A DNA stretch of 17,133 nucleotides from Gemmatimonadota bacterium. GTDB lineage: Bacteria > GCA-2686955. The position numbers and the translations under genes are program-made. The DNA lies in contig NYZA01000213.1 of the NCBI GenBank assembly GCA_002686955.1, positions 1 to 17,133 on the forward strand, written 5' to 3'. Under the pieces are notes generated by a model. It saw only the letters and a list, made by a program, of their open reading frames with translations. It had not been told where the DNA came from and made no database searches. Of this stretch, positions 1,367 to 17,133 are shown piece by piece; positions within the stretch are counted from its first letter, which is position 1, and the number at the start of each line of letters is the position of its first letter.

Positions 1367-2200
1367 ATGTTCCGTCTCGCCCTCGCAGCAGCTTCCGCCC
1401 TGGTCGTCAGCGCAACAACCGCCGGCGCCTCCATGGCCGTCGCCAACTTCCTCGACGTACCTTTCACTACTCTCGACAAGGGCCAAGAGACCGGAATCGT
1501 GGATTCCGGCTACATGGTCTTCACAGAGGACGCCGAATTCGCGCCCTTTTGGAACGAGCACGCCGCGGGTCTCGACTACCTCCCCCTGATGCCCGCGATC
1601 GAATGGGAAAACGAGATGGTGATTGCCGCCTTTCTGGGGACCCAGTACGGCGGGACCGGTGATATCGAGATCACGCAGGTCGATGTGCTCACCAGCGCGG
1701 TTTTCGCGCACGTCGCGAAGCAGGGAGAGATCTCGGCACGGCCGATCGCAACGAATCCCTTCCACATCATCGTCACCGATCGTTGGAATACGCCGGTGCT
1801 CTTCCCCGATTTCGATCTAAACCCGACGACACTCGAGAGCGGCTTCACCCAGACCAGACTCCTACCCGACATGAATGTCGTCGTCGATAACAACGCCGAT
1901 TGGAATCAGGTTTGGGGCGCGATTCATCGTGACGACATCGAGGCGCCCGATGTCGATTTCTCCGAGCATCTGGTTCTCGCGCTCTCCAGCGGCATGGTTC
2001 CTTCACCCGGCCACGGCATCGACCTGGCCTGGGCCAAGACCGTCGATATCGCCGGGCGGACCTTCTCGCTGGCGATGATCGAGAACACCGTTCCTAGCCG
2101 CCCCGCCATCATGATTCCGGGCTACGCCTGGCAGTTCGTGCAGATCGATCGCACCGGCGCCCCGCTTAGCCTCTTCGAGTTCACTCAGGCGACAGAGTAG
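1367..2200 (+). CDS. Secreted protein with two PrcB_C-like domains
   Basis: Predicted exported 277-aa protein. A signal peptide (residues 1 to about 22, hydrophobic ALAAASALVVSATTAGA) is followed by two halves that look alike. The first half (about 35-147) has FAPFWNEHAAG, then NEMVIAAFLGTQYGGTGDIEI and NPFHIIVTD. The second half (about 160-272) has ADWNQVWGAIH, APDVDFSEHLVLALSSG and a weaker glycine patch. This pattern (Trp-containing helix, P-x-(I/V)DF, M/LV-h-A-x-x-G) is that of the PrcB C-terminal domain, known from a spirochaete protease-complex subunit; its molecular role is poorly known. The ATG at 1367 is preferred over the upstream in-frame ATG at 1277: GGAGA lies 8 nt before it and a clean signal peptide follows. 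The gene ends in an intrinsic terminator, so it is probably monocistronic. Family call moderate, function unknown. Confidence 0.8.
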   Translation: MFRLALAAASALVVSATTAGASMAVANFLDVPFTTLDKGQETGIVDSGYMVFTEDAEFAPFWNEHAAGLDYLPLMPAIEWENEMVIAAFLGTQYGGTGDIEITQVDVLTSAVFAHVAKQGEISARPIATNPFHIIVTDRWNTPVLFPDFDLNPTTLESGFTQTRLLPDMNVVVDNNADWNQVWGAIHRDDIEAPDVDFSEHLVLALSSGMVPSPGHGIDLAWAKTVDIAGRTFSLAMIENTVPSRPAIMIPGYAWQFVQIDRTGAPLSLFEFTQATE

Positions 2201-2226
2201 CATCTTCCAGCTCTCGCGGGAGAAGC

Positions 2227-2260
2227 GCGGCCCTCTCATTCGGGAGGGTCGCCTTTTTTT
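2227..2260 (+). terminator. Rho-independent terminator of the PrcB-like gene
   Basis: Stem GCGGCCCTCTC (2227-2237), loop ATTC, GGGAGGGTCGC (2242-2252), with only two G-T wobbles, followed by C and seven T. It lies 27 nt after the stop codon. Confidence 0.93.
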
Positions 2261-2349
2261 GTGCGTTCGGGGGCTCTCTACCCGCTCATCACGTCAAGAC
2301 CTTGTAGCCTTGAGTACGAACCCGAATCCGACCGCAAGAAAGAGCTCCG

Positions 2350-2778
2350 ATGAGCCACTTTCCCGCCACGATCATCTCCGTCTTCGCCCTTTTCGCGATC
2401 TCCTCCGCGCTCGCCATCGATTCGCTCGAGCTGCCCGGCCCCTGCGACGATTCCTATCATTACCGCTACTTCGCCAATGATGTGACATTCCTAGCGACAT
2501 TGATGAACCGAGGAACCGATATGACCCAATCCCAGGTGCGCTTCTATCTGTCGAGCAACGACTACATCTCGAACTACGACATCTACATCGGCGGCGGCAC
2601 CTTCACCGGAGAGGCTGGCTCGACCGGCACCTTCGATCTATCGCTTCCTATCCCGACGAGCGTCGCGTCCGGCAACTACTACGTCGGCCATCTCTTCGAT
2701 CCGAACGACAACGTGAGCGAGGTGAACGAGAGCAACAACGCCGTGGCGCTGAGAAAGCCGATCAAGGTGATGCAATGA
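2350..2778 (+). CDS. Small secreted CARDB-domain protein
   Basis: 142-aa protein with a signal peptide (hydrophobic residues 6-22, cleavage likely after A-L-A) and one immunoglobulin-like CARDB domain (about 40-135), an extracellular adhesion-type fold. Diagnostic stretches are VTFLATLMNRG (45-55), VRFYLSSND (63-71), the central YDIYIGGG, then SGNYYVGHLFDPNDNVSEVN running into ESNNAV (107-132). The acidic and Asn-rich end of this last stretch is typical of the family. The gene follows the PrcB-like gene after its terminator, so it should have its own promoter, which I could not identify with confidence. A single CARDB domain with nothing else is short; it may act as a minimal surface or periplasmic binding module. 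Partner unknown. Confidence 0.82.
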   Translation: MSHFPATIISVFALFAISSALAIDSLELPGPCDDSYHYRYFANDVTFLATLMNRGTDMTQSQVRFYLSSNDYISNYDIYIGGGTFTGEAGSTGTFDLSLPIPTSVASGNYYVGHLFDPNDNVSEVNESNNAVALRKPIKVMQ

Positions 2779-2859
2779 CCGAACCCAGGAGCGAAGGCCT
2801 GCCGCTTAAAATGCCCGGGAATAGACCCCACCCTCGGCGGCAGTATTGGTTGAGGAGCC

Positions 2860-3003
2860 ATGACCAAACCGTCTCCAACCCCGACCGATGAAGACCTGGC
2901 CGCCCTGGCCCGCGAAGGTGATTCGGGCGCGTTCGAGCAGATCGTGGTGCGGCATTGCCGCGCTCTCTTCGCGCTCTTCCTGCGATCGACCGGTCGCTCG
3001 GCT
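2860..3003 (+). pseudogene. ECF sigma factor, truncated after the start of region 2
   Basis: After GAGGAG and an ATG, the first ~48 codons read as the start of an ECF (sigma-70 family) factor: [20 protein letters not shown] then [18 protein letters not shown], matching the usual (D/E)-x-x-L-(V/A)-x-x-A-x-x-G-D-x-x-A-F-(E/D)-x-(I/L)-(V/Y) pattern of region 2.1 and the beginning of 2.2. The similarity then stops: the expected DAEDLVQ-type region 2.2 and the whole region 4 are missing. The frame stays open to 3510, but that part is the antisense of an efflux adaptor remnant, so it is not a genuine C-terminus. A truncated protein might still be made; it could not bind -35 elements. The breakpoint near 3000-3008 coincides with the end of the adaptor fragment. 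Confidence 0.72.
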
Positions 3004-3648
3004 GACAACCTCGCCCACAGTGGCATGTCGAGACACCACGCAGCCCGTTATCGGGCTCCTGATGGTCAGCTCACTGCCACTACCGTCTTGTCCGTAGATG
3101 TCGAGGGCACGCTGTGCGGCGGACTCTTCGGCTCGAGCGCGTCGAAGCGTCGCCTGTGCCTCCAGGAAATCCCGTTTCGCGCCTATTCCCTCACGCTGAA
3201 GCTCCTGTTGGCGGGCGTAGTTCGCTTACGCTACCTCTACATTCGCGCGGGTTCTCGTGGCTTGGGCTCTGGCTTCGCCGAGAGCGATGCTGCGTACTAT
3301 CGCGAGCGGCTGACCGGCTCGAACGCTTTCTCCAATCTAGGCCATTACAGCTGCGAGCTGACCCGAGACGATAGTGGACACGTGCGCCTCTCTGTCGGGC
3401 TCCAACTGGATCTCCGCCGGGACCTCTATGCCTCCTTGTGCCGGCGCCCCCTCGACCGTCGCGAAACGTATCCCCATTCGTTCGATGGCATCGGGACTGA
3501 TATGTACTAGATTCCGACCACCTCGACTCTCGCTTTGCTCATCGTGTTGCTCGTGGTCGTCGTGGCGTGCGGGCGCGAGACGATTGTCGCAGCCGGCGGC
3601 CAGGGGTAGGAGTGGGAATACGATCGTCCAGAACGGGCGGAGACTCAT
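3001..3648 (-). pseudogene. RND efflux periplasmic adaptor (CzcB/CusB type), truncated and with two in-frame stops
   Basis: Lipoprotein adaptor of a tripartite cation pump. It begins at the ATG at 3648, which overlaps the upstream TolC-like gene by ATGA. Visible parts are a lipobox signal (PLAAGC), a His/Asp-rich stretch [25 protein letters not shown], then QLAAVMA followed by TAG (3339-3337). The same frame continues with [12 protein letters not shown] and [13 protein letters not shown], then a TAA (3228-3226). It goes on with [27 protein letters not shown] and [18 protein letters not shown], the two lipoyl halves and the hairpin in family order. Similarity ends at about 3003, where an ECF sigma fragment begins on the other strand. 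The C-terminal half (barrel and membrane-proximal domains) and any CzcA pump gene are absent. Two different stop codons plus truncation argue for decay rather than stop-codon recoding. Confidence 0.85.
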
Positions 3649-5054
3649 CGATCATCCTCGTGCGGCTGCAAGGGCAAATCATGTCGCTCGTCGGGCCATA
3701 TGTCGGTGCCGATCGAGGCTTCGAGATTCGCGACGGCTTGGAAGTAGTCCGAGTGGGCATCCAGTGCGTCGGATTGGGTACGCAAGAATCGCTCCCGTGC
3801 CACTGAGACCTCGAGAATGTCGATTTCGCCGAGCTCGTATGCACGTTGAATGAGGTGCAAGTTCTTCTCGAAAGTGGGCAGAATCTCGCTTCCGTAGCTG
3901 CGCACGCGGGCCGCGGCGGCGGTAAGAGCGCTACGATCCTGCTCTAATCGAGCAGCGAGCTGAGCGCTGTAGACCTGTTGCTCGGCCTCCGCGAGACGAA
4001 CCTCCGCGTGCGCTTTCGCACGCGCCCCCTGATCGCGTGCGAATAGGGGAATGGACACGGAAAACGTGCCGATTACCACGGCCTCGTCGAAGCCGGCGGG
4101 AGCGCCCTCTCGCGCATACTCGAGCCCCAAGGTCGGTTCGGGCCAGGCCTCGCGTTCGGCTGAATGCGCAAGGGCTTCCGCCTCGGCCCGAATCGCCCGC
4201 AATGTTCTCAACCGCGGTTGATGGCTCTGCGCGGCGACCCAGAGCATCTCGCGCGGAGGCGGATCCAGCGGCGCATCGAGCGATCCGGCCGGTTCTGGGG
4301 GATGGGTTTCGGGCCACCCTGCCAGAGCCCCCAATTCGAGGCGCGCATGTCGATAGGCCTGCTTCGCGGCGATCTTGGCGACGCGAGATTGACTCAATTC
4401 GCCCTCGGTCACCCGCACAGCCAGCTCCGAAACATCCCCTGCCCGAAACCTGCGCCGCGCGATGTCGAGTAGGCGTTCCTGGAAAGCCAACAGTCGATCG
4501 GCGGCCAACATCTTTTCGCGAGCGACGAGTGCCCGATGAAATGCCGCATGCACGTCGCGATGCACATGCCACCGGGCCTCATCGAGCTCTGCGTTGAATC
4601 GCCGCCTGGAACGCTCCGCCGCCTCGATTCGTAGCCCCCGTTCTCCCGCAATTTCGACGCGCTGTGAAATCGAGGCGCTGAGGTCGGTGTACCGTCCGGC
4701 AACTCCGCGCCTGGGCCCCGCACCGATCGAAAACTCTGGATTATGAGGAAGCCAAAGCGATGCGCCATCGACCGCGGCATCGCCAAGCTCCAGGCGCGCG
4801 CGCCCGCGGCCAAGCAAGGGCGAGTGCCGGTCCGCGAAGGCAAGAATCCCATGCAGCGACACTATGCCCTCGGTCAGAGGATTCGGCAAGGGCGCTGCCT
4901 GAATCTGAATTCCCGGGAGATCTCGAGATCGTCTCTCAGCATCGGCGTACGTGGCCGCGATCCCGCCAACGATTAGTATGGTCCAAATGCGCAATATACT
5001 ATTCCCAATAGTTGCCGTCGCCGCATTACTGGGACTCGACACGGTCTTGTTCAT
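3645..5054 (-). CDS. TolC/CzcC-family outer-membrane efflux factor
   Basis: 469-aa outer-membrane channel component of an RND efflux system, most like the heavy-metal CzcC/CusC branch. Signal or anchor region at residues 18-36, NPEFSIG at 105-111, long helical repeats with [11 protein letters not shown] (203-213) and, in the second half, the matching [11 protein letters not shown] (406-416). This duplicated F/Y-x-x-G-(D/E)-(V/I)-x-x-L signature is typical of the family. [10 protein letters not shown] (334-343) is the usual beta-strand/turn segment. The reading frame is complete and clean, unlike its partner: its stop overlaps the start of the decayed adaptor by ATGA. It lies 4 nt after the M56 peptidase gene, so it is translated from the repressor-led operon. 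Without an adaptor or pump here, it would need partners encoded elsewhere. Metal specificity is inferred from the family only. Confidence 0.9.
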
Positions 5055-5058
5055 TGCT

Positions 5059-6084
5059 TCAGATGATTCCTACTAGACTCGCGCAGCTCTCGACACCGTA
5101 ATGGAGCACATCCAAGGGACCGGTGCCGGACACGTGCGGGAGCACGATCAAAAGTGGTGTGACCAAAGTGAGAAACCCCACTGAAGCAAAACGCCGGGGC
5201 GGCGCGGGCCGACGATTCGCAGAGTCGAGAAGAAGGTGGATCCGAACTCGGATCCCATCCATTCCGTGGCCACTCAACGCCTCCGCGCGAGCTCTTGCCG
5301 AGCCCGTCCGAGCCACGGCAACAATGCCGCTGGCGAGCGAGAGTGGATCCGCGCCAAGCTGTACTGCACGGCGGTCACAAATCGCTTCACGCGCAAACCA
5401 GTAGCGTTCGAATTCAGCTTCGAGAATCCGCCCCAGCGGATTGATGGAGAGAGCCAGTCGTGCCACCAGCAGGCGCAGCGGATCCCTTGCGCGGGTATGT
5501 TCCAGCTCATGCAGGAGCGCCGCTTCTATCTCTTCGTCGCTGAGCTGATCCGCGACATCCGCGGCGATCTCGACAACCGGGTGGAGCACGCCGCTGGTGC
5601 AAACCGGGGCGAAGTTCCTGTCGACGACGCAAACCCGCCGAGCGATGGGCGCCAGGGCGGGGTGTCGGGCGCATACTCGGCGCACGCGGTCGACGACCGC
5701 CGACGATTTCGAAACCGGCTTGTGTATGTTCGGGCCGCGGAAACTGCTGATCCCGTACCCGACGCCCGCCAGCGGAACCGCGGAGAGCACGAGAGCAAAG
5801 AGGACCACGTCTCGGCAAAACTCCACGCCGAAATATGGTGCGATACAGACAGCGAGCGGCGCTCCCTCCTCGGACTGATGGGCGGCCGCCGATACGAGCC
5901 AGAGCACCGGACCGATAGTTGGACCGACGATGAGCATATAGCGCAGTGAGCTTCCGTGACGGTCGATGCAGCATTTCCGATCCGGAGCCGCCGCGAGCAG
6001 TAGCCGAGCCGCCACGGTGAGCGGAGGGACCACTACAGAAAACACGATGGTGGCTCCGAAGAGGGGAAAGATGAGCTCCGTCAT
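5059..6084 (-). CDS. M56 (BlaR1/MecR1-like) membrane metallopeptidase
   Basis: 341-aa integral-membrane zinc protease. Membrane segments lie at about 5-30, 48-68, 92-112 and 302-318. The zinc motif HELEH is at 192-196, with the probable third ligand E233 in [11 protein letters not shown], in the family arrangement. The usual large C-terminal penicillin-sensor domain of BlaR1 is missing; only about 20 residues follow the last membrane segment, so the signal is unlikely to be a beta-lactam through the classical route. In known systems such peptidases are activated by an envelope signal and lead to cleavage of the cognate BlaI-type repressor. Here the repressor gene lies directly upstream and overlaps it by ATGA (6081-6084), which supports that pairing. 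The efflux gene follows 4 nt downstream. The signal is unknown; a metal or envelope stress is plausible. Confidence 0.9.
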
Positions 6085-6557: not shown

Positions 6558-6671
6558 CAGCCCGGGTCCAGAAAATGCGATGGCATGGGCTCACCTGTCG
6601 TACTAGCAACCGACGGTCGTCCCGCCATCCGCGCATGTCCGCGATTATCGACGATCGAATACACTCCGCCC

Positions 6672-7949
6672 ATGTTTGTTCTTCGTGCGCTGATCGGTCT
6701 CCTCTTCTTCTGCGGCGTGGCATGGTTGTTCTCGAGCCATCGACGGGCCTTTCCAGGTCGGGTCGTCGTCTTCGGGCTCGCGATCCAGCTCGCACTGGCC
6801 GCGTTCATCCTCGAGACCTCGATAGGGATCGTGGTCTTCCAGGCGATCGCCGACTTCGTGGCGCGCTTGATCGGCATGACCGGCGAGGGCGCGGCGCTGG
6901 TCTTCGGGGGCCTCTCCCGGGGGGATTTCGCGGAGGGCGGCTGGGGGTTCGCCTTCGCCTTCGCGAGCTCCGGGCTGACGGTCATCATCTTCTTCAGCGC
7001 GCTGATGGGGGTTCTCTACCACCTGGGGATCATGCAGGTGCTGATCTACGGCTTGGCCCGGATAATGACCACGCTGATGGGAGTGAGCGGGGCCGAGTCG
7101 ATGGCGATGGCGGCGAATGTCTTCGTGGGGCAGACCGAGGCGCCGCTCGTCGTGAGGCCCTATATCGCCGAGATGACCGCATCGGAGCTCAACGCTTTGA
7201 TGACGGGGGGCTTCGCGACGATCGCGGGGTCCGTTCTCGCGGTCTACATGGGGCTTTTGGGCGCCGAGTACGGTCCCCATCTTCTGACGGCGTCGGTGAT
7301 GAGCGCGCCGGCGGCTTTCCTCATCGCCAAGATCATGCTCCCCGAGACCGAAAGCTCGGTGACGGGCACGAAGGTCGAGCTGAAGATCGAGAGAAGCGCG
7401 GGGAATCTGATCGAGGCGGCGGCCAACGGGACGGGCGACGGACTGCAGCTCTGGCTCAACGTAATCGCCATGCTGATCGCCTTCATGGGGCTCGTCGCTC
7501 TGGTGAACTGGCCGCTCGGATGGGCCGGTGAGCAGCTCGTGGCGGTCGGATGGCTGACCGGCACGCTCGATTTGGGACGGATCTTCGGCTGGGTTTTCGC
7601 CCCGGTCGCATGGTGCATGGGCGTGGAGGGCTGGCACGACTGTCAACTGATGGGCACGTTGCTCGGCACTAAGATCGCGGTGAATGAATTCATCGCTTTC
7701 GAGGGGATGCAGCGAATGCTACCGGGAGGCGATCCGAGCAGCACTTTCGAGCATATTCGCAGCGCCAAGATGGCGGCCTACGCACTCTGCGGCTTCGCCA
7801 ACTTCGCGTCGATCGGAATCCAGATCGGGGGCATCTCGCCGCTGGCGCCGGAGCGCAAGCCGGCGATCTCGAAGCTGGCCCTGCGCGCGATGCTGGGGGG
7901 AGCCTTCGCATCGTGGATGACGGCGACGGTGGCGGGGATGTTCTTGTAG
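6672..7949 (+). CDS. Concentrative nucleoside transporter (CNT/NupC family)
   Basis: 425-aa inner-membrane symporter importing nucleosides with Na+ (or H+). Key residues align with the Vibrio cholerae CNT structure even in numbering: N149 and V152 (sodium site), Q154-T155-E156 in GQTEAP (base binding) and V188. In the second half come E339 in NEFIAF, then N377 and S380 in CGFANFASIGI (ribose binding). The usual Ser at the sodium site (position 183) is Thr here. Re-entrant and transmembrane segments are spread over the whole length, as usual for the bacterial family. The ATG at 6672 is chosen since FVLRALIGLLFFCGVAWLFS is the family N-terminus; the open frame also extends upstream to an ATG at 6585, but that stretch looks unrelated. 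No strong ribosome binding site is visible. Divergent from the blaI-like operon. Confidence 0.93.
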   Translation: MFVLRALIGLLFFCGVAWLFSSHRRAFPGRVVVFGLAIQLALAAFILETSIGIVVFQAIADFVARLIGMTGEGAALVFGGLSRGDFAEGGWGFAFAFASSGLTVIIFFSALMGVLYHLGIMQVLIYGLARIMTTLMGVSGAESMAMAANVFVGQTEAPLVVRPYIAEMTASELNALMTGGFATIAGSVLAVYMGLLGAEYGPHLLTASVMSAPAAFLIAKIMLPETESSVTGTKVELKIERSAGNLIEAAANGTGDGLQLWLNVIAMLIAFMGLVALVNWPLGWAGEQLVAVGWLTGTLDLGRIFGWVFAPVAWCMGVEGWHDCQLMGTLLGTKIAVNEFIAFEGMQRMLPGGDPSSTFEHIRSAKMAAYALCGFANFASIGIQIGGISPLAPERKPAISKLALRAMLGGAFASWMTATVAGMFL

Positions 7950-9335: not shown

Positions 9336-10634
9336 ATGGGGACCATGCTAGAGCGATTCTTCAGATTAGACGAACACAACACAACCCCGCGAACCGAGCT
9401 TCTTGCAGGGCTGACCACGTTTCTGACGATGCTCTACATCGTCTTCGTCAACCCCACCATGTTGGCCGAGGCCGGCATGGATCGGGGTGCGGTGTTCGTT
9501 GCAACCTGCCTCGCCGCCGCCATCGGCACCCTGCTCATGGGCGTCTTGGCCAACTACCCGATCGCCCTCGCGCCTGGAATGGGCCTCAACGCCTACTTCG
9601 CCTACACGGTGGTTCTCGGCATGGGACATCCGTGGCAGACCGCACTCGGGGCGGTGTTCATATCCGGCTGCATCTTCGTGCTCCTGTCTGTTTTCAAGGT
9701 GCGGATGTGGCTGATCGATGCCATCCCCCCCTCGTTGAAACTGGCCACGTCGACCGGCATCGGCCTCTTCTTGGCCGTGATCGCCTTCCAATCCGCCGGC
9801 GTGATCGCCGATTCCCCCGCCACCCTCATTACCCTCGGCGATCTCGGCAACCCCCGGACTTTGCTCGCCTGCCTCGGCTTTGTCCTCATGGTGGCTCTCG
9901 ACGTGCGCCGCGTTCCCGGCGCCATCGTGATCGGCATCTTGACGGTGACCGGTGTCGCCGCCTTGCTCGGCCTCACCCAATTCGAGGGCGTCTTCGCGCC
10001 GCCCCCCGACATCCGTCCCACCTTCCTCGCCATGGATATCCGCGCCGCGTTCGATGTCGGTCTAATCACCATCGTCTTCGCCTTCCTCTTCGTCGACCTG
10101 CTCGACACCGCCGGCACGCTCGTCGGGGTCGCCCACGGCGCGAGTATGCTCGACCGGCAGGGGCGTCTTCCGCGCCTCGGCCCAGCGCTTCTCGCCGACA
10201 GTTCCGCGACCGTGCTGGGAGCCACACTCGGAACCTCGACGACGACGAGCTACATCGAGAGCGTCTTGGGAGTGCAGGCCGGAGGGCGAACCGGTTTGAC
10301 CGCGCTGACGGTGTCCCTTCTTTTTCTCCTCGCCCTCTTCCTCGCACCCCTGGCGCAGAGCGTCCCCCCCTTCGCGACCGCGCCGGCCCTGCTCTACGTC
10401 GCCTGCACGATGGCTCGCGGTTTCGCCTCGATCGACTGGAGCGACGCCACCGAAGCCTCCCCGGCCCTGGTCACCGCTCTCGGAATCGCCTTGACCCTTT
10501 CGATCGCAACCGGAATTGGGCTAGGATTCCTGGCTTTCACAGCGATCAAGCTCCTGACCGGCCGCGGGCGAGATGTCACCCCAGGCGTGTTGGTCCTCAG
10601 CATCCTCTTTCTGCTGAAGTTCTCTTTGCTTTGA
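9336..10634 (+). CDS. AzgA-type NCS2 purine permease
   Basis: 432-aa inner-membrane permease of the AzgA/GhxP group (adenine, guanine or hypoxanthine uptake by proton symport). Motifs: TELLAGLTTFLTMLYIVFVN (20-39), ALAPGMGLNAYFAY (77-90), FVDLLDTAGTLVGVA (252-266), and ATLGTSTTTSYIESVLGV followed by GGRTGLTALTV, the central half-helix region that binds substrate. Around 12 hydrophobic segments cover the protein and the length is normal. GGAG sits 6 nt before the ATG at 9336; a second ATG three codons later is possible. The gene stands alone after the divergent dehydrogenase. Together with the CNT nucleoside transporter it points to purine salvage. The exact base cannot be told from sequence. 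Confidence 0.94.
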   Translation: MGTMLERFFRLDEHNTTPRTELLAGLTTFLTMLYIVFVNPTMLAEAGMDRGAVFVATCLAAAIGTLLMGVLANYPIALAPGMGLNAYFAYTVVLGMGHPWQTALGAVFISGCIFVLLSVFKVRMWLIDAIPPSLKLATSTGIGLFLAVIAFQSAGVIADSPATLITLGDLGNPRTLLACLGFVLMVALDVRRVPGAIVIGILTVTGVAALLGLTQFEGVFAPPPDIRPTFLAMDIRAAFDVGLITIVFAFLFVDLLDTAGTLVGVAHGASMLDRQGRLPRLGPALLADSSATVLGATLGTSTTTSYIESVLGVQAGGRTGLTALTVSLLFLLALFLAPLAQSVPPFATAPALLYVACTMARGFASIDWSDATEASPALVTALGIALTLSIATGIGLGFLAFTAIKLLTGRGRDVTPGVLVLSILFLLKFSLL

Positions 10635-11742: not shown

Positions 11743-12960
11743 TCATCCGCCGTGGGACGGCGCGGATCCCCGGCCAGACAGCTCGGCCCAGGTGAGGCCG
11801 TCCCAGTAGATCTCTTGCAGGGCCTGAGAAGAGACCCCAAATTCCGAACCCGCATCCCACCGGCAGCGCTCGCACGCGATGGCAATCCTCAACACATCGG
11901 AGAGCGGGCCGGATAGATCCGACAGCGCCATCTTGACGTCGTCGGAGAGTGGCAGCGACGCGATCACGTCGGCCATCGGTGCATCCATCAACGCATCGGC
12001 CGTCGAGAACAGGCCCACCGTGAAATGGGTTTCCCCACCCCCCCGCCCCAGCGCATCAGCGATCTGTTCGCACATCCGCGCCCGAATCAGCGAGACCTTC
12101 AGCAGCTCGGCCGGCTTGTCTTCGATGCCGGCGATCAGCCCGAGGGTGGCGAAACGCTTGATCTCTCGCAATCCGAGCAGAACGACGGCGTGCCTCATCG
12201 AATCGACCCTTTTCGACAGGCCGAAGAGCGCGGAGTTGATGTACTTCAGCAACTTGAAGCTCAGTCCCACATCGGCCTCTATCAGCGATTCGAGCTCTTC
12301 GACGTCGACATCGGGGTCCGCGAGTCTCGCGATCAACTCCAAGATCATCAGGCGATTGCTCGGCATCCTCCGCCCACGAACGACCGTCGGCTTGCTGAGG
12401 AAGTACCCCTGAAAGTAGTCGAATCCCATGTCATGAAAGTGTCGGAAATCCTCCTGCGTCTCGACCTTCTCCGCCAACAGCCGCACTCCGAAAGTCCTCA
12501 ACAATCGCCGCTGGCGGTTGATCTCGGCGCGGGAGAGAGCCAGCACATCGATCTTGACGATCTTGGCGATCCGCAACAGCGGCGTCCACGCCGGTGAAAA
12601 GACGAAATCGTCGAGCGCGACCATGAACCCCGCCTCCGCAAGGCGCGCGACTTCCGCGACGAGCTCGTCGTCCGGATGAACGTCTTCGAGAATCTCCAGG
12701 ACGATCCGCTGCTTAGGCAAAGCCATGAGCGTGCCGCCCAGGATCAGCTCGCGCGTGCAATTCACGAATGCGGGGTGGTGTCCCGCCATCTGGTCCAGGC
12801 CGATCGTCGTGAAGGTATTTGCCAGCACATCGGCCGTCGCGCGGTTCCCGTCGACCGCTCCGGCGCTGTTCCTCTCTCCGCTACGGAAGAGAAGCTCGTA
12901 CGCCCGAACGGTTTGGGACCGGTCGAAGATCGGCTGGCGGCCTACAAAGACTTCTGACAT
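11743..12960 (-). CDS. EAL-HDOD (YuxH-type) signalling protein
   Basis: 405-aa cytosolic regulator combining a c-di-GMP phosphodiesterase-like EAL domain (about 1-195) with an HDOD domain (about 200-400). EAL landmarks: FVGRQPIFD (5-13), YELLFR at 21-26 (ELL for EAL), FVN (65-67), LEILED (88-93), LDDF (116-119), VKID (135-138), AEKVE (163-167) and FQGYFLSKP (183-191). Most metal and substrate residues are thus in place, although loop 6 reads DDFVFS rather than DDFGTG. The HDOD part has ESLIEADVGLSFKLLKYINS then ALFGLSK, the usual start of this domain. Proteins of this layout act in motility or stress signalling; catalytic activity is uncertain. The ATG at 12958-12960 gives the standard N-terminus, though no clear ribosome binding site precedes it. 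Divergent from the PspA-type operon, 158 bp away. Confidence 0.94.
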   Translation of the reverse strand: MSEVFVGRQPIFDRSQTVRAYELLFRSGERNSAGAVDGNRATADVLANTFTTIGLDQMAGHHPAFVNCTRELILGGTLMALPKQRIVLEILEDVHPDDELVAEVARLAEAGFMVALDDFVFSPAWTPLLRIAKIVKIDVLALSRAEINRQRRLLRTFGVRLLAEKVETQEDFRHFHDMGFDYFQGYFLSKPTVVRGRRMPSNRLMILELIARLADPDVDVEELESLIEADVGLSFKLLKYINSALFGLSKRVDSMRHAVVLLGLREIKRFATLGLIAGIEDKPAELLKVSLIRARMCEQIADALGRGGGETHFTVGLFSTADALMDAPMADVIASLPLSDDVKMALSDLSGPLSDVLRIAIACERCRWDAGSEFGVSSQALQEIYWDGLTWAELSGRGSAPSHGG

Positions 12961-13118: not shown

Positions 13119-13538
13119 TTGACCAATGAAACCATTAGCCTCGACCAGATTCGCGAGCTCGTCGCAGAAAGCGGCTACGAGATCGTGGAAAGTGACGACG
13201 AGAATCGGGTGCTGCGCATCCGCGATCTCGACAGCGGCATGATCCTGACTACGGTGCTGCAAGAGAGCGTTCTCTTCAACACGGTGCAGCTCGTAAACGT
13301 CGAGCGCTCGACCCTTTCGACCGAAGTGCTCTGGACGCTGCTAGACGGCACCAACGGCATCTCTACCTCGAGCTTCCAGCTCTACGAGGGCCCGAAGGGC
13401 GTCGCGATCACGCTCAACAACTTCGCCAAGCTTCAGGCGATGGGCGCCGACGACAAAGACGACATCCTCTCCTGCCTCGAGTTTCTCGTCGTCGACGCGT
13501 GGGCGGCGCGCGATCTACTTGGTGGATTGCTCGACTAG
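13119..13538 (+). CDS. Small YbjN/YjfI-like protein, first gene of the PspA-type operon
   Basis: 139-aa soluble protein starting at TTG. It reads as a chaperone-like alpha/beta fold: helix SLDQIRELVAESGYEIVES, strands RVLRIRDL, GMILTTVLQ and TVQLVNV, then an acidic C-terminal helix DDKDDILSCLEFLVVDAWAA. The pattern of a first helix with a Gly-Tyr, followed by paired strands, resembles YbjN/type-III-secretion-chaperone-like domains. Its place directly before a PspA-family gene is the same as that of YjfI (DUF2170) before YjfJ in Escherichia coli; whether it is a true YjfI homologue I cannot say from sequence alone. The PspA gene starts 39 nt downstream. Function likely tied to the PspA-like partner, by context only. 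Confidence 0.75.
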   Translation: MTNETISLDQIRELVAESGYEIVESDDENRVLRIRDLDSGMILTTVLQESVLFNTVQLVNVERSTLSTEVLWTLLDGTNGISTSSFQLYEGPKGVAITLNNFAKLQAMGADDKDDILSCLEFLVVDAWAARDLLGGLLD

Positions 13539-13577
13539 CTCTGCCCCGCCCCCATCTTCGAAAGGAAAGAAACTGTC

Positions 13578-14252
13578 ATGGCATTTTTCAAACGAATCTT
13601 CCGAGTTGCCAAGGGAAAAGCGAACGCCGCCGCCGAATCGATCGAAGACGCTACCTTCGAAACGACGCTCAAACAGAACATCAGAGACATGGACGCGCAG
13701 CTGAACAAGGTCGTCAAGGCCTCGGCAGAAGCCATGAGCAATCTCAATCGTCTCGAGACGGAATACCAGCGTCACATCGATCGCTCCGGCGAATGGAAGG
13801 CGAAGGCAACAAAGGCGCTCGAATCCGGGCGCGAGGATCTCACCAAGAAGGCGCTCGCCAAGAAGCAAGAGTCGGATCGCCAGGTCGTGGCGCTCGAGTC
13901 ATCCGTTGCTCAAGCCCGGGCCGCCCGTGAAAAACTCAAGGGGCAGGTCGATACACTCCGCTCGAAGATCGAGGAGGCGCGCCGAAACAGCTCCACATTG
14001 ATCGCGCGCAAGAACGCCGCCCGCGCCCAGCGGCAAGTGGCGCAGACCTTGGCCGGCGTCAACGTCGACGACAACGCATTCGCCGCCCTGGGTCGCTTCG
14101 AGGAATCGGTGGCGCGCGATGAGGCGATGACCCAGGCGTACGAAGAGATGAGCCCCGAAAGTGACGGCGATCTCGACGACGAGCTCGCCGCCCTCGACGT
14201 CTCGACCACCGATGACGAGCTCGCCAAGCTAAAGGCGGAGCTGGGTAAGTGA
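13578..14252 (+). CDS. PspA/IM30 (Vipp1, YjfJ-like) family protein
   Basis: 224-aa coiled-coil protein of the ESCRT-III-related PspA/IM30 superfamily, which binds the inner face of the cytoplasmic membrane and forms large oligomers that stabilise damaged bilayers. It begins with the amphipathic helix MAFFKRIFRVAKGKANAAAE, then shows the family hairpin of long charged helices (about 25-150; e.g. KQNIRDMDAQLNKVVKASAE, KALAKKQESDRQVVALESS) and a shorter acidic C-terminal part with DDELAALDVSTTDDELAKLK. Length is the family norm. No PspF or PspBC is present, so it belongs to the other branch in which PspA-like proteins sit with DUF350 and DUF4178 genes. AAGGAAA lies about 11 nt upstream of the ATG. 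Its stop overlaps the next start as GTGA (14249-14252), indicating translational coupling. Confidence 0.92.
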   Translation: MAFFKRIFRVAKGKANAAAESIEDATFETTLKQNIRDMDAQLNKVVKASAEAMSNLNRLETEYQRHIDRSGEWKAKATKALESGREDLTKKALAKKQESDRQVVALESSVAQARAAREKLKGQVDTLRSKIEEARRNSSTLIARKNAARAQRQVAQTLAGVNVDDNAFAALGRFEESVARDEAMTQAYEEMSPESDGDLDDELAALDVSTTDDELAKLKAELGK

Positions 14253-14884
14253 CACAATTTCTCGTCCTCGTCCTTTTGCTTCTCTGCGCCGGACTTCTGG
14301 TGGCTGCCTACCGCGGGCACAAGTCGAAAGAAGAAGAGGAGAAGAGGGAGGGGGATGGAAGCGATATGCGAAATCTTTCGACTCCATCTATCGCGGACGC
14401 AAAGCACGGCGATGCTGTCACAGTCATAGGCGCGTCGGAAGATTTCGATGATCTGCATTTCACGGTCGACCGAGTCAGTACTTATCGCCGCGGAGAAGAA
14501 CGCTGGGGTGAGATCAGCGGCGTCGCCAAGAACCGCCGCATCTTCGTGGAATGGCACGACGACGATGAGATCACCCTGCTTCTTCGCCGCGCGGACGACC
14601 TGAAACTGGCCGACTTAGGCATTGGCGACGAAAATCTCGCCCGCTTCGACGAAGAGGAGTCCCGAGACAATCACATCGTCTACGATGGCGATCGCTACGA
14701 CTACAGCTTCAGCGGAGAGGTTCTCTACTCTCGCGACGGCGCCGAGGAAGAGGGTTTCTACGCGTGGGACTTCGAAGGCCAGGGCGCCATGGTGGTCTGG
14801 GTCGAGAAATGGGCTGGTGAACCCTTCGTAGTGGGCGTCTCGGAGAGGATCCTGCCGCACAACGTGACAATCCTCCGAAAGTGA
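14249..14884 (+). CDS. Membrane-anchored DUF4178 protein
   Basis: 211-aa protein. An N-terminal membrane helix (residues 4-20, LVLVLLLLCAGLLVAAY) is followed by a charged linker rich in Glu/Lys and one beta-rich DUF4178 domain (about 40-205). Domain landmarks: AKHGDAVTVIGAS, ERWGEISGVAKNRRIFVEW with the conserved Trp and Glu, DRYDYSFSGEVLYS, FYAWDFEGQGAMVVWVEKWA. The domain has no assigned biochemical activity; it recurs next to PspA, DUF350 and polyamine-related genes. The GTG start overlaps the PspA stop (GTGA). The soluble domain's side of the membrane cannot be fixed; a basic cluster right after the helix (RGHKSK) suggests the domain is cytoplasmic. Equivalent by position to YjfK of enterobacteria. 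Confidence 0.85.
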   Translation: MTQFLVLVLLLLCAGLLVAAYRGHKSKEEEEKREGDGSDMRNLSTPSIADAKHGDAVTVIGASEDFDDLHFTVDRVSTYRRGEERWGEISGVAKNRRIFVEWHDDDEITLLLRRADDLKLADLGIGDENLARFDEEESRDNHIVYDGDRYDYSFSGEVLYSRDGAEEEGFYAWDFEGQGAMVVWVEKWAGEPFVVGVSERILPHNVTILRK

Positions 14885-14894
14885 TCGGGAGACT

Positions 14895-16355
14895 ATGCAA
14901 CCGAAACCGCTCATGTACCTGGCGGCCGCGGTGGCGTGCGTCGCGCTCATTCTCACCCTCACCGGCCGAGGGGGGCTCGACGCTCGAACGCGGACCCTCT
15001 TAGAGGTCGAATCGACGAGCTACCCGCGGGCTGAAGACCAATTCACCGCGCAACGAGAGGCGATCGCCGGCTCTCTGACCGATGCCCCGGCGCTCTTCCG
15101 GCGCAAGAGCCGGCAGTGGGAGCTGAGCCTCGAAACGGCCGCGGCCCGGCTCGACGAAGGCAAGACATCGCTCCGGGGGGCCGCAGAGCTCGCGCGAGAG
15201 AACCGTGGCGAGCTTCGCCCAAAGATCGAAACCGCCCTCCTCGGCGCCCGTGAGGCCCGGATCTTCGCGTTGGCCGAGAGCGCCACGATCGAGGGCGAGA
15301 TCGAACGTCTCCTGGAATTGAGGGAAGACCGCGAGAAAACCGTGAGCGACGCCCGTGCCGATTTCGAGGCGATTCAGGCGATGAGCTTGAGCGAAACCGA
15401 ATCGCGCGTCGACCGCGCCAAGCGCGACTGGCCTCCAAAGGAGGCCGACCTTGGCCGTCGTCTCTCCGGGCTTCTGGCGACAAAAGAGAGCGCCGGAGAG
15501 GCATGGAATACGGTTCGCGCCGAAGACGCCAAGGCGAGCGATGATATTGACCTCATCGCCCTGGCAAGCGCCTCTGATCTGCTCCGCCGGGGATTGATCG
15601 ATCTCAGCGAGGCAAATGCCCATCTCGCCGCCCTCGTATCGCAGCTCTACATCTCGTGGGACAAGATCCTGGTCGACATGTCGATCGAAGAGGGCGAAGA
15701 GGTGACGTTCCAGCACAAATACCGAACCGTGCGCGTGACCGCGGGCGAGGGAGAGGCCCCGAACCCTCCGAGCGAAAAGTGGGAGGCCGTCAGCCGCGCC
15801 GATTACGAGCGACACAAAGAGAACCTCGGCATGACGGTCGCGTCGAAACCGGCGGGGCTGTACGACAGCGAAATCGACGCCGCGGCGGCCCAACCCGCCG
15901 GTTTCGCCTACATCGCCACCCCAGAAGAGGGGCGAAACGAGTACGGCCAATGGAGGCGTGACGACCGCGGGAACAGCTTTTGGGAGTTCTACGGCAAGTA
16001 CGCCTTCATGCGAAGCCTCTTTTGGGGACCGATGTACTCGCCGATCCATATGGGGGACTACCGAGGCTACCGAAGATCGTACGACGCCGGACGAAGCTAC
16101 TACGGCACGAGCCGCTCGGGTGTAAAGCAGTACGGATCGAGCGCCCAGAAGACCCGAACGCGTCTCGCATCGAGCCGATACGTCGGAAACGACGGGTTCA
16201 AAGGGAGCCGATACGAGCAATCCGGCGGCAAATACAAGGGGTCGAAGTACGAAACGAAAGCGTCGCGTTCTCGCGGAGGAACCCGCGCGGCATCGACCAG
16301 CCGGAGCCGGTCGACGCGATCCCGGAGCTCAAGCCGATCGAGGGGAGGCAAGTGA
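14895..16355 (+). CDS. Membrane-anchored coiled-coil protein with Tyr/Gly-rich and Arg/Ser-rich tail, family not recognised
   Basis: 486 aa, no family recognised. From N to C: membrane helix (7-24, MYLAAAVACVALILTLTG); about 200 residues of charged helix (30-240) with heptad-like Leu/Ala and many Glu/Arg, likely coiled coil; a mixed region (245-370) with ISWDKILVDMSIEEGEEVTF and KWEAVSRADYERHKE; a Trp/Tyr-rich stretch (about 350-385: SFWEFYGKYAFMRSLFWGPM); a Tyr/Gly/Ser/Arg low-complexity segment with imperfect repeats KGSRYE and KGSKYE; and a strongly basic tail SRSRSTRSRSSSRSRGGK. CGGGAG precedes the ATG by 4 nt. It lies 10 nt after the DUF4178 gene and its stop shares a base with the next start (TGATG), so it belongs to the same operon. 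It may be a scaffold linking the membrane to the PspA-like oligomer or to an anionic polymer, by inference only. Confidence 0.85.
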   Translation: MQPKPLMYLAAAVACVALILTLTGRGGLDARTRTLLEVESTSYPRAEDQFTAQREAIAGSLTDAPALFRRKSRQWELSLETAAARLDEGKTSLRGAAELARENRGELRPKIETALLGAREARIFALAESATIEGEIERLLELREDREKTVSDARADFEAIQAMSLSETESRVDRAKRDWPPKEADLGRRLSGLLATKESAGEAWNTVRAEDAKASDDIDLIALASASDLLRRGLIDLSEANAHLAALVSQLYISWDKILVDMSIEEGEEVTFQHKYRTVRVTAGEGEAPNPPSEKWEAVSRADYERHKENLGMTVASKPAGLYDSEIDAAAAQPAGFAYIATPEEGRNEYGQWRRDDRGNSFWEFYGKYAFMRSLFWGPMYSPIHMGDYRGYRRSYDAGRSYYGTSRSGVKQYGSSAQKTRTRLASSRYVGNDGFKGSRYEQSGGKYKGSKYETKASRSRGGTRAASTSRSRSTRSRSSSRSRGGK

Positions 16356-17133
16356 TGCCGGTACCGGAAGGACTCGCGATGAGTCTGGCATATGTCGCGT
16401 CGGGTCTTGCATTGCTGATCTTGGCCAAGATCGCAAAAGATATCACAACACCTTTTTCCATCGATGAAGAGCTAACAGCGCGCGACAACAGAGCGCTGGC
16501 TCTCAGCATATCGGGTTACTACCTGGGCGTAACGGCGATCTTCATCGGGGCCGCGACCGGCGCCGATATCGAAGCCGCGACTCGGCTCGAGGCCGCGGCG
16601 GAGCTCGGCGGCGATCTGGCCTACGCCATCGGAGGAATCGTTCTGCTCAATCTGGGCAGATGGCTTCTCGATCGCCTCGTGCTCCCTCGCTTCAGCACAC
16701 GCAAAGAGATCATCGAAGATCGCAACATCGGTACAGGGGCGGTCGAGGCCGGCGCTTATGTCGCGACGGCTTTGGTGGTGGCCGGCGCAGCTCACGGCGA
16801 GTCGGGCGGCGCGATGAGCACTCTGGCCTTCTTCGCGGCGGGGCAGGTGGCTTTGATCGCTTTCGCGAAGCTCTACGACTGGATCACACCCTACGATCTG
16901 CACGAGGAAATCGAAAGCGACAATGTTGCCGCGGGGGTGGCATTCGGTGGCAGCATGGTCGCGATCGGCGTGGTGCTCTTGCGGGCGACGATGGAGCCCT
17001 ACGTTGGCTTCGCGGAGAACGCGGGCCATTTCCTTCCCTTGATCGTGATCGGATTCGTCGCACTGGTGGTGGCGCGTTTCGTGACCGACCGAGCCCTGCT
17101 TCCCAACTCATCGCTTAGCCATGAGATCGCGAA
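16355..17133 (+). CDS. DUF350 (YjfL-like) multi-pass membrane protein, C-terminus beyond the right edge
   Basis: The visible 259 residues are an inner-membrane protein with about seven hydrophobic segments. They contain repeated units beginning with E-(I/L)-x-x-(D)-(R)N: ELTARDNRALALSISGYYLG (39-58), KEIIEDRNIGTGAVEAGAYV, EEIESDNVAAGVAFGGSMVA, and the start of a fourth (LSHEIA) at the window edge. Such paired units make up DUF350 domains, known from YjfL; at least two domains are implied here. Function is unknown. The ATG at 16355 is supported by GGGGAGG ending 6 nt upstream and by TGATG overlap with the preceding stop. An ATG eight codons later is the alternative. The start of each repeat is highly charged and follows a KD-x-x-TP-type turn (KDITTP, YDWITPYD), as in the family. 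Confidence 0.9.
   Translation, partial: MPVPEGLAMSLAYVASGLALLILAKIAKDITTPFSIDEELTARDNRALALSISGYYLGVTAIFIGAATGADIEAATRLEAAAELGGDLAYAIGGIVLLNLGRWLLDRLVLPRFSTRKEIIEDRNIGTGAVEAGAYVATALVVAGAAHGESGGAMSTLAFFAAGQVALIAFAKLYDWITPYDLHEEIESDNVAAGVAFGGSMVAIGVVLLRATMEPYVGFAENAGHFLPLIVIGFVALVVARFVTDRALLPNSSLSHEIA

Follow-up and report, generated by a model that had tools for sequence, protein, structure and literature searches.

The contig NYZA01000213.1 of a Gemmatimonadota bacterium (assembly GCA_002686955.1) ends in an operon around a PspA/IM30-family gene. The window, i.e. the whole stretch of 17,133 nucleotides analysed here, is the entire contig (C213) of a genome of 4.28 Mb in 270 contigs that is 84.5% complete (G000). 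Five open reading frames (ORFs) on the plus strand extend from position 13119 to the window end. ORF, junction and Pfam reading verified gene content and overlaps and confirmed the close packing described in an earlier note on this DNA. The junctions are, in order, a 39-base gap, a GTGA overlap, a 10-base gap and a TGATG overlap. The fourth product, designated P4, ends in Gly-Lys, and this end is the subject of the interpretation developed below.

13119..13538, plus strand: CesT/Tir- and YbjN-like small protein, the positional equivalent of YjfI; 139 aa, TTG start after AGGAGGAAT
13578..14252, plus strand: PspA/IM30-family protein; 224 aa, PspA_IM30 5.7e-42
14249..14884, plus strand: DUF4178 protein with an N-terminal hydrophobic helix; 211 aa, PF13785 2.6e-7, GTGA overlap with pspA
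14895..16355, plus strand: P4, a signal-anchored protein; 486 aa, no Pfam match, relatives sharing the C-terminal half, AlphaFold2 model
16242..16352, plus strand: coding region of the basic disordered tail of P4; the final two codons are Gly-Lys, the stop lies at 16353-16355
16355..17133, plus strand: DUF350 (YjfL-like) double-domain membrane protein; PF03994 6.8e-50, truncated by the window end

The continuation was found on contig C253 of the same genome, using a spermidine synthase fusion with seven transmembrane (7TM) helices from locus L006 as query (54% identity). The start of C253 reads AALVEAAAAVSLAVVIFFMF followed by a stop, the expected C-terminus of DUF350; the counterpart in L006 is AAWIESIVSIGMAVVIFFM. 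The genes on C253 are as follows.

C253:2-64: missing DUF350 C-terminus, about 20 residues
C253:64-396: SpeD, S-adenosylmethionine (AdoMet) decarboxylase; TGATG overlap with DUF350, PF02675 1.8e-24
C253:393-2045: mSpeE, 7TM-spermidine synthase fusion; ATGA overlap with SpeD
C253, about 2042-3058: K+ channel with RCK domain; follows mSpeE without gap
C253 (L064) 3055-3855: M55 D-aminopeptidase, DppA-like; 1e-87, ATGA overlap with the K+ channel gene

Comparison with locus L005 suggests that about 15 bases are missing between C213 and C253; the physical join is inferred. The operon would comprise eight or nine genes: cesT-like, pspA, DUF4178, P4, DUF350, speD, mSpeE, K+ channel and M55 peptidase. 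The peptidase may be the ninth member; it is not a regular one in other genomes. SpeD appears intact, and its Glu-Ser-His processing site was read in the C253 sequence. SpeD and mSpeE of C253 are the sole matches of their kinds found in the genome, of which about 15% is missing. The earlier note had predicted a polyamine or ATP-grasp enzyme just beyond position 17133. The polyamine part was borne out by SpeD followed by mSpeE. An ATP-grasp enzyme of the YjfC kind was rejected, as no PF03738 protein was found in the 84.5% complete genome; the operon is thus not of the YjfC/YgiC type.

The first protein alone gave only a weak CesT_Tir_1 match (0.061). It is 46-54% identical to the homologues of L006 and L011. 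Among 18 positional homologues, CesT_Tir_1 was matched by 15 (best 4e-54), CesT by 13 and YbjN by 11, and the YbjN/YjfI-like designation given before holds through these homologues. A CesT-family profile gave no match in the PDB. PspA aligns over its full length to solved PspA/Vipp1 structures. Genes for pspF, pspB and pspC were absent among the scanned ORFs of the window and C253. The system is therefore not a classical Psp operon (pspFABC) but an atypical one, as had been noted for the window.

The gene order of the window is repeated in most of 58 DUF350 loci, which were read with custom-built profiles. They derive from Planctomycetota, Myxococcota, Nitrospirota, Bacteroidota, Desulfobacterota and others. 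In view of this recurrence, the gene set is not a chance assembly. The recurrent module consists of CesT-PspA-DUF4178, a tail protein, DUF350 and mSpeE, often with SpeD and a K+ channel and sometimes with a rhomboid. The operons at L023, L045, L047, L057 and L058 contain an inserted gene for a rhomboid-family protease. Cultured carriers include Aureivirga marina LMG 26721 (L060) and Carboxylicivirga linearis (L025), and the published group-2 example is found in Shewanella oneidensis MR-1. In the nearest relative (G001), mSpeE lies on a 3-kb contig that is too short to show gene context.

The operon almost certainly belongs, as a variant, to a described class, group 2 of the PspA systems (Ravi et al., 2024; PMC11237479). 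In that study, group 2 has a CesT/Tir-PspA dyad, DUF4178, DUF350 and a 7TM-spermidine synthase. All of these were found here, the last one on C253 across the inferred join. The group-2 lipoprotein with a Ctha_1186 domain may correspond to the C-terminal half of P4. Three features differ from group 2 as described there (PMC11237479). The operon holds SpeD and an RCK K+ channel together, whereas in that study the K+ channel belongs to the third group, variants of which include AdoMet decarboxylase. P4 is signal-anchored and carries an extra helical bundle of 220 residues. The invariant Gly-Lys end is not mentioned in the parts of PMC11237479 that were consulted. Its authors also see PspA systems as possible monitors of polyamines or of aminopropylation, and they refer to Li et al. 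(2019). The bacABCDEF operon of Pseudomonas aeruginosa (PMC10948618) also encodes YjfI-like and PspA-like proteins, but lacks a spermidine synthase and has the DUF2170 protein BacA.

Membrane-bound fusions of the mSpeE type with their own AdoMet decarboxylase are present in many bacterial phyla. Li and colleagues reportedly described clusters of an AdoMet decarboxylase, a fusion of a major facilitator superfamily domain with spermidine synthase, and DUF350. The fusion is said to have given neither complementation of a spermidine synthase mutant nor any spermidine. It was, by the same account, proposed to aminopropylate probably a substrate other than putrescine. These clusters share three genes with the operon of the window; a candidate substrate is named here, and none was reportedly given there.

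P4 may be this candidate. The AlphaFold2 model (predicted local distance difference test, pLDDT, 88) comprises a transmembrane helix (4-23), a confident helical bundle (30-250), a small beta-containing C-terminal domain and a disordered Ser/Arg-rich tail. P4 matches no family in Pfam or NCBIfam. A fold search of the model against the PDB gave 388 matches, none with E <= 0.001; these were weak helical-bundle matches only, e.g. EzrA. Short lipoproteins at the same operon position are homologous to the C-terminal half, while P4 itself is signal-anchored. A P4 profile found no match in 13 genomes, most of them with mSpeE but no P4-family locus, a weak test on a set without positive control.

The C-terminus of P4 is ...RSRGGK. 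All 31 P4 relatives of the first set end in Gly-Lys. The same end occurs in two unrelated replacements of P4, the small aromatic/Gly-rich family q88 and the family q283. After addition of later loci, it was found in 40/40 proteins of the P4 family, 7/7 of q88 and 15/15 of q283 (62/62). Apart from these two final residues, no position is invariant across the three families. Five further small and unrelated neighbours share the end (L081, L093, L096, L098 and L121). Other ORFs of the first loci end in Gly-Lys in 5 of 726 cases. A second, independent survey was seeded with mSpeE, avoiding DUF350 seeding. The mSpeE profile was applied to 386 genomes, and 32 neighbourhoods were read. A same-strand ORF rich in Ser/Gly/Arg/Lys and ending in Gly-Lys was counted as a Gly-Lys neighbour. 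It was present at 12/13 loci with DUF350 versus 1/17 without (Fisher test, 1.9e-6). Three of the twelve proteins (L081, L096, L098), plus that of L093, where DUF350 is lacking, were not recognised by the three family profiles. Both locus sets taken together, a Gly-Lys neighbour occurs at 57 of 59 loci with mSpeE and DUF350. An N-terminal hydrophobic segment is present in 66/67 Gly-Lys proteins; the start of the exception (L035) is probably mis-called.

The closest solved relatives of the mSpeE catalytic domain are aminopropyltransferases, by fold and by motif. The donor motif GGGDG and the catalytic Asp pair D404/D407 are kept in all aligned sequences. The AlphaFold2 model shows seven transmembrane helices (pLDDT 91). 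In each of 49 sequences (49/49), Lys/Arg residues occupy the N-terminus as well as loops 2, 4 and 6. With positively charged inside loops, seven helices and an inside N-terminus, the catalytic domain is predicted to face the outside of the inner membrane. Flavin amine oxidases with N-termini resembling twin-arginine translocation (Tat) signals directly follow mSpeE in two loci (L005:10747-12390 and L088:6465-8084). Their position suggests an amine product or substrate outside. An outside active site suits both an exported tail and the Tat-like oxidases.

A sister branch of DUF350 operons contains ATP-grasp enzymes of the YgiC/YjfC family. Their Ser/Gly-rich lipoprotein ends in Gly-Gly in 8/10 cases, namely E. 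coli YgiB (...RSMGG) and YjfM (...HWGG), L144, L145, L146, L110, L134 and L147. In RefSeq, YgiC and YjfC bear the name of peptide-spermidine ligases, which goes back to Pederick et al. (2023; cited in PMC12270671 and PMC12568646). In E. coli, the gene orders yjfI-yjfJ-yjfK-yjfL-yjfM-yjfC and ygiB-ygiC were read. A ligase needs a carboxylate, and an aminopropyltransferase needs an amine. The Gly-Gly and Gly-Lys ends match these two chemistries, which is a pattern and not a proof. The parallel to yjfIJKL drawn in the earlier note stands for the gene order, with CesT/YjfI, PspA, DUF350, a Ser/Gly-rich lipoprotein and a polyamine link in common. It does not extend to the third gene, which is DUF4178 in the window and DUF2491 in yjfK. 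Moreover, the E. coli operons have a peptide-spermidine ligase in place of SpeD and mSpeE, and their lipoproteins end in Gly-Gly instead of Gly-Lys. One genome (G319) harbors both branches. It encodes a 54-aa Gly-Lys ORF near DUF350 (L121:6774-6938), a Gly-Gly-ending lipoprotein adjoining an ATP-grasp ligase (L144:2286-2918), and an mSpeE that lies on a third contig (L083). No description of the Gly-Lys rule, or of the Gly-Gly rule that mirrors it, was found in the literature consulted.

It is proposed that the C-terminal lysine of P4 is the aminopropyl acceptor of mSpeE, a reading that is drawn from sequence patterns and given a little less than an even chance. SpeD would produce decarboxylated AdoMet, and the 7TM domain is a candidate route for this donor to the outside active site. 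There, mSpeE would move the aminopropyl group onto the last residue of the exported tail, a lysine. Made more cationic by this modification, the tail may function at the membrane or in the envelope. DUF350, DUF4178, PspA and the CesT-like protein may support or sense a membrane complex, which the K+ channel would couple to ion balance. The earlier note had suggested that the inner membrane itself is modified or protected by a polyamine-type compound. Given the conserved Gly-Lys ends, an exported protein tail is the better candidate substrate. Overall, that interpretation is partly supported, and the operon observation underlying it is confirmed. A wider scheme, possible but decidedly tentative, assumes two parallel pathways that place polyamine-type groups on the extreme C-termini of exported Ser/Gly-rich envelope proteins. 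Gly-Gly carboxyls would be the targets of ATP-grasp ligases, and Gly-Lys amines those of 7TM aminopropyltransferases with an outside active site and a SpeD-derived donor. The invariant Gly-Lys end, mirrored by Gly-Gly beside the ligases, represents a specific target candidate. If true, aminopropylation of Gly-Lys would be a new protein modification. Polyamine-type modification at the C-terminus would then be established for envelope proteins, and the PspA operons with a polyamine link would gain a biochemical function.

Several observations weigh against lysine as the acceptor. An outside active site requires decarboxylated AdoMet outside the cytoplasm. No position in mSpeE distinguishes loci with a Gly-Lys neighbour from those without, so the enzyme itself gives no pointer to a lysine. 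The clearest exception is L088, which has SpeD, mSpeE, a short DUF350 and a zinc-ribbon-like protein of 464 aa, but no Gly-Lys protein; L044 has none within the locus either. Owing to shared ancestry within each family, the 62 Gly-Lys cases are not 62 independent events. The Gly-Gly pattern comprises ten operons only, with two exceptions (L113 and L117).

Alternatively, the product of mSpeE could be a small molecule formed at the membrane, either a free polyamine or an aminopropylated metabolite. It would stabilise lipids or be detected by the PspA complex, and the Gly-Lys tail would serve in binding or sensing. This reading, rated as unlikely, comes close to the proposal in PMC11237479. The catalytic domain of mSpeE is a close fold match to the Thermus triamine/agmatine aminopropyltransferase, SpeD is encoded in the operon, and polyamines on the outside would suit the Tat-type amine oxidases of L005 and L088. 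However, the single SpeD and the single SpeE of the genome both lie in the operon, and no ornithine/arginine decarboxylase of the PF02784 type was found in the 84.5% complete genome (PF01276-type enzymes were not searched). The reported failure of complementation and lack of spermidine also disagree with a free polyamine, and the invariant final lysine is left unexplained.

The Gly-Lys end could also be a never-modified docking, sorting or stability tag, e.g. for DUF350 or the export machinery. The aminopropyl acceptor of mSpeE would then be a different one, for example the head group of a phospholipid. Gly-Lys proteins track DUF350 more strictly than mSpeE; in three genomes (G106, G223 and G319; loci L102, L103 and L121) the protein lies beside DUF350 and mSpeE on another contig. 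Loci with mSpeE and without DUF350 usually have no Gly-Lys protein nearby, and Gly-Lys-specific residues are lacking in mSpeE. This reading is rated as rather improbable. A docking tag leaves unexplained the contrast between Gly-Gly ends in ATP-grasp operons, where DUF350 is likewise present, and Gly-Lys ends in mSpeE operons.

That mSpeE is a protein methyltransferase is very improbable: the fungal N-terminal histidine methyltransferase (NHMT) has the same architecture of seven transmembrane helices and a spermidine-synthase-like domain and acts on secreted proteins, but carries Ile at the acidic position of GxG(D/E)G (PMC10349129), whereas GGGDG is kept in all aligned mSpeE sequences and the speD gene is a direct neighbour. 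NHMT (PMC10349129) resembles the proposed enzyme in modifying exported proteins at a terminus and differs in its methyl donor and the N-terminal His.

Other genes of the window precede the operon. A divergent EAL-HDOD gene (11743-12960) is located directly upstream. Genes for a CNT-type nucleoside transporter and a xanthine/uracil permease (6585-7949 and 9336-10634) lie less than 3 kb apart. On the minus strand, an outer-membrane efflux protein gene (3645-5054) is situated directly 3' of a BlaR1-type M56 peptidase gene (5059-6084).

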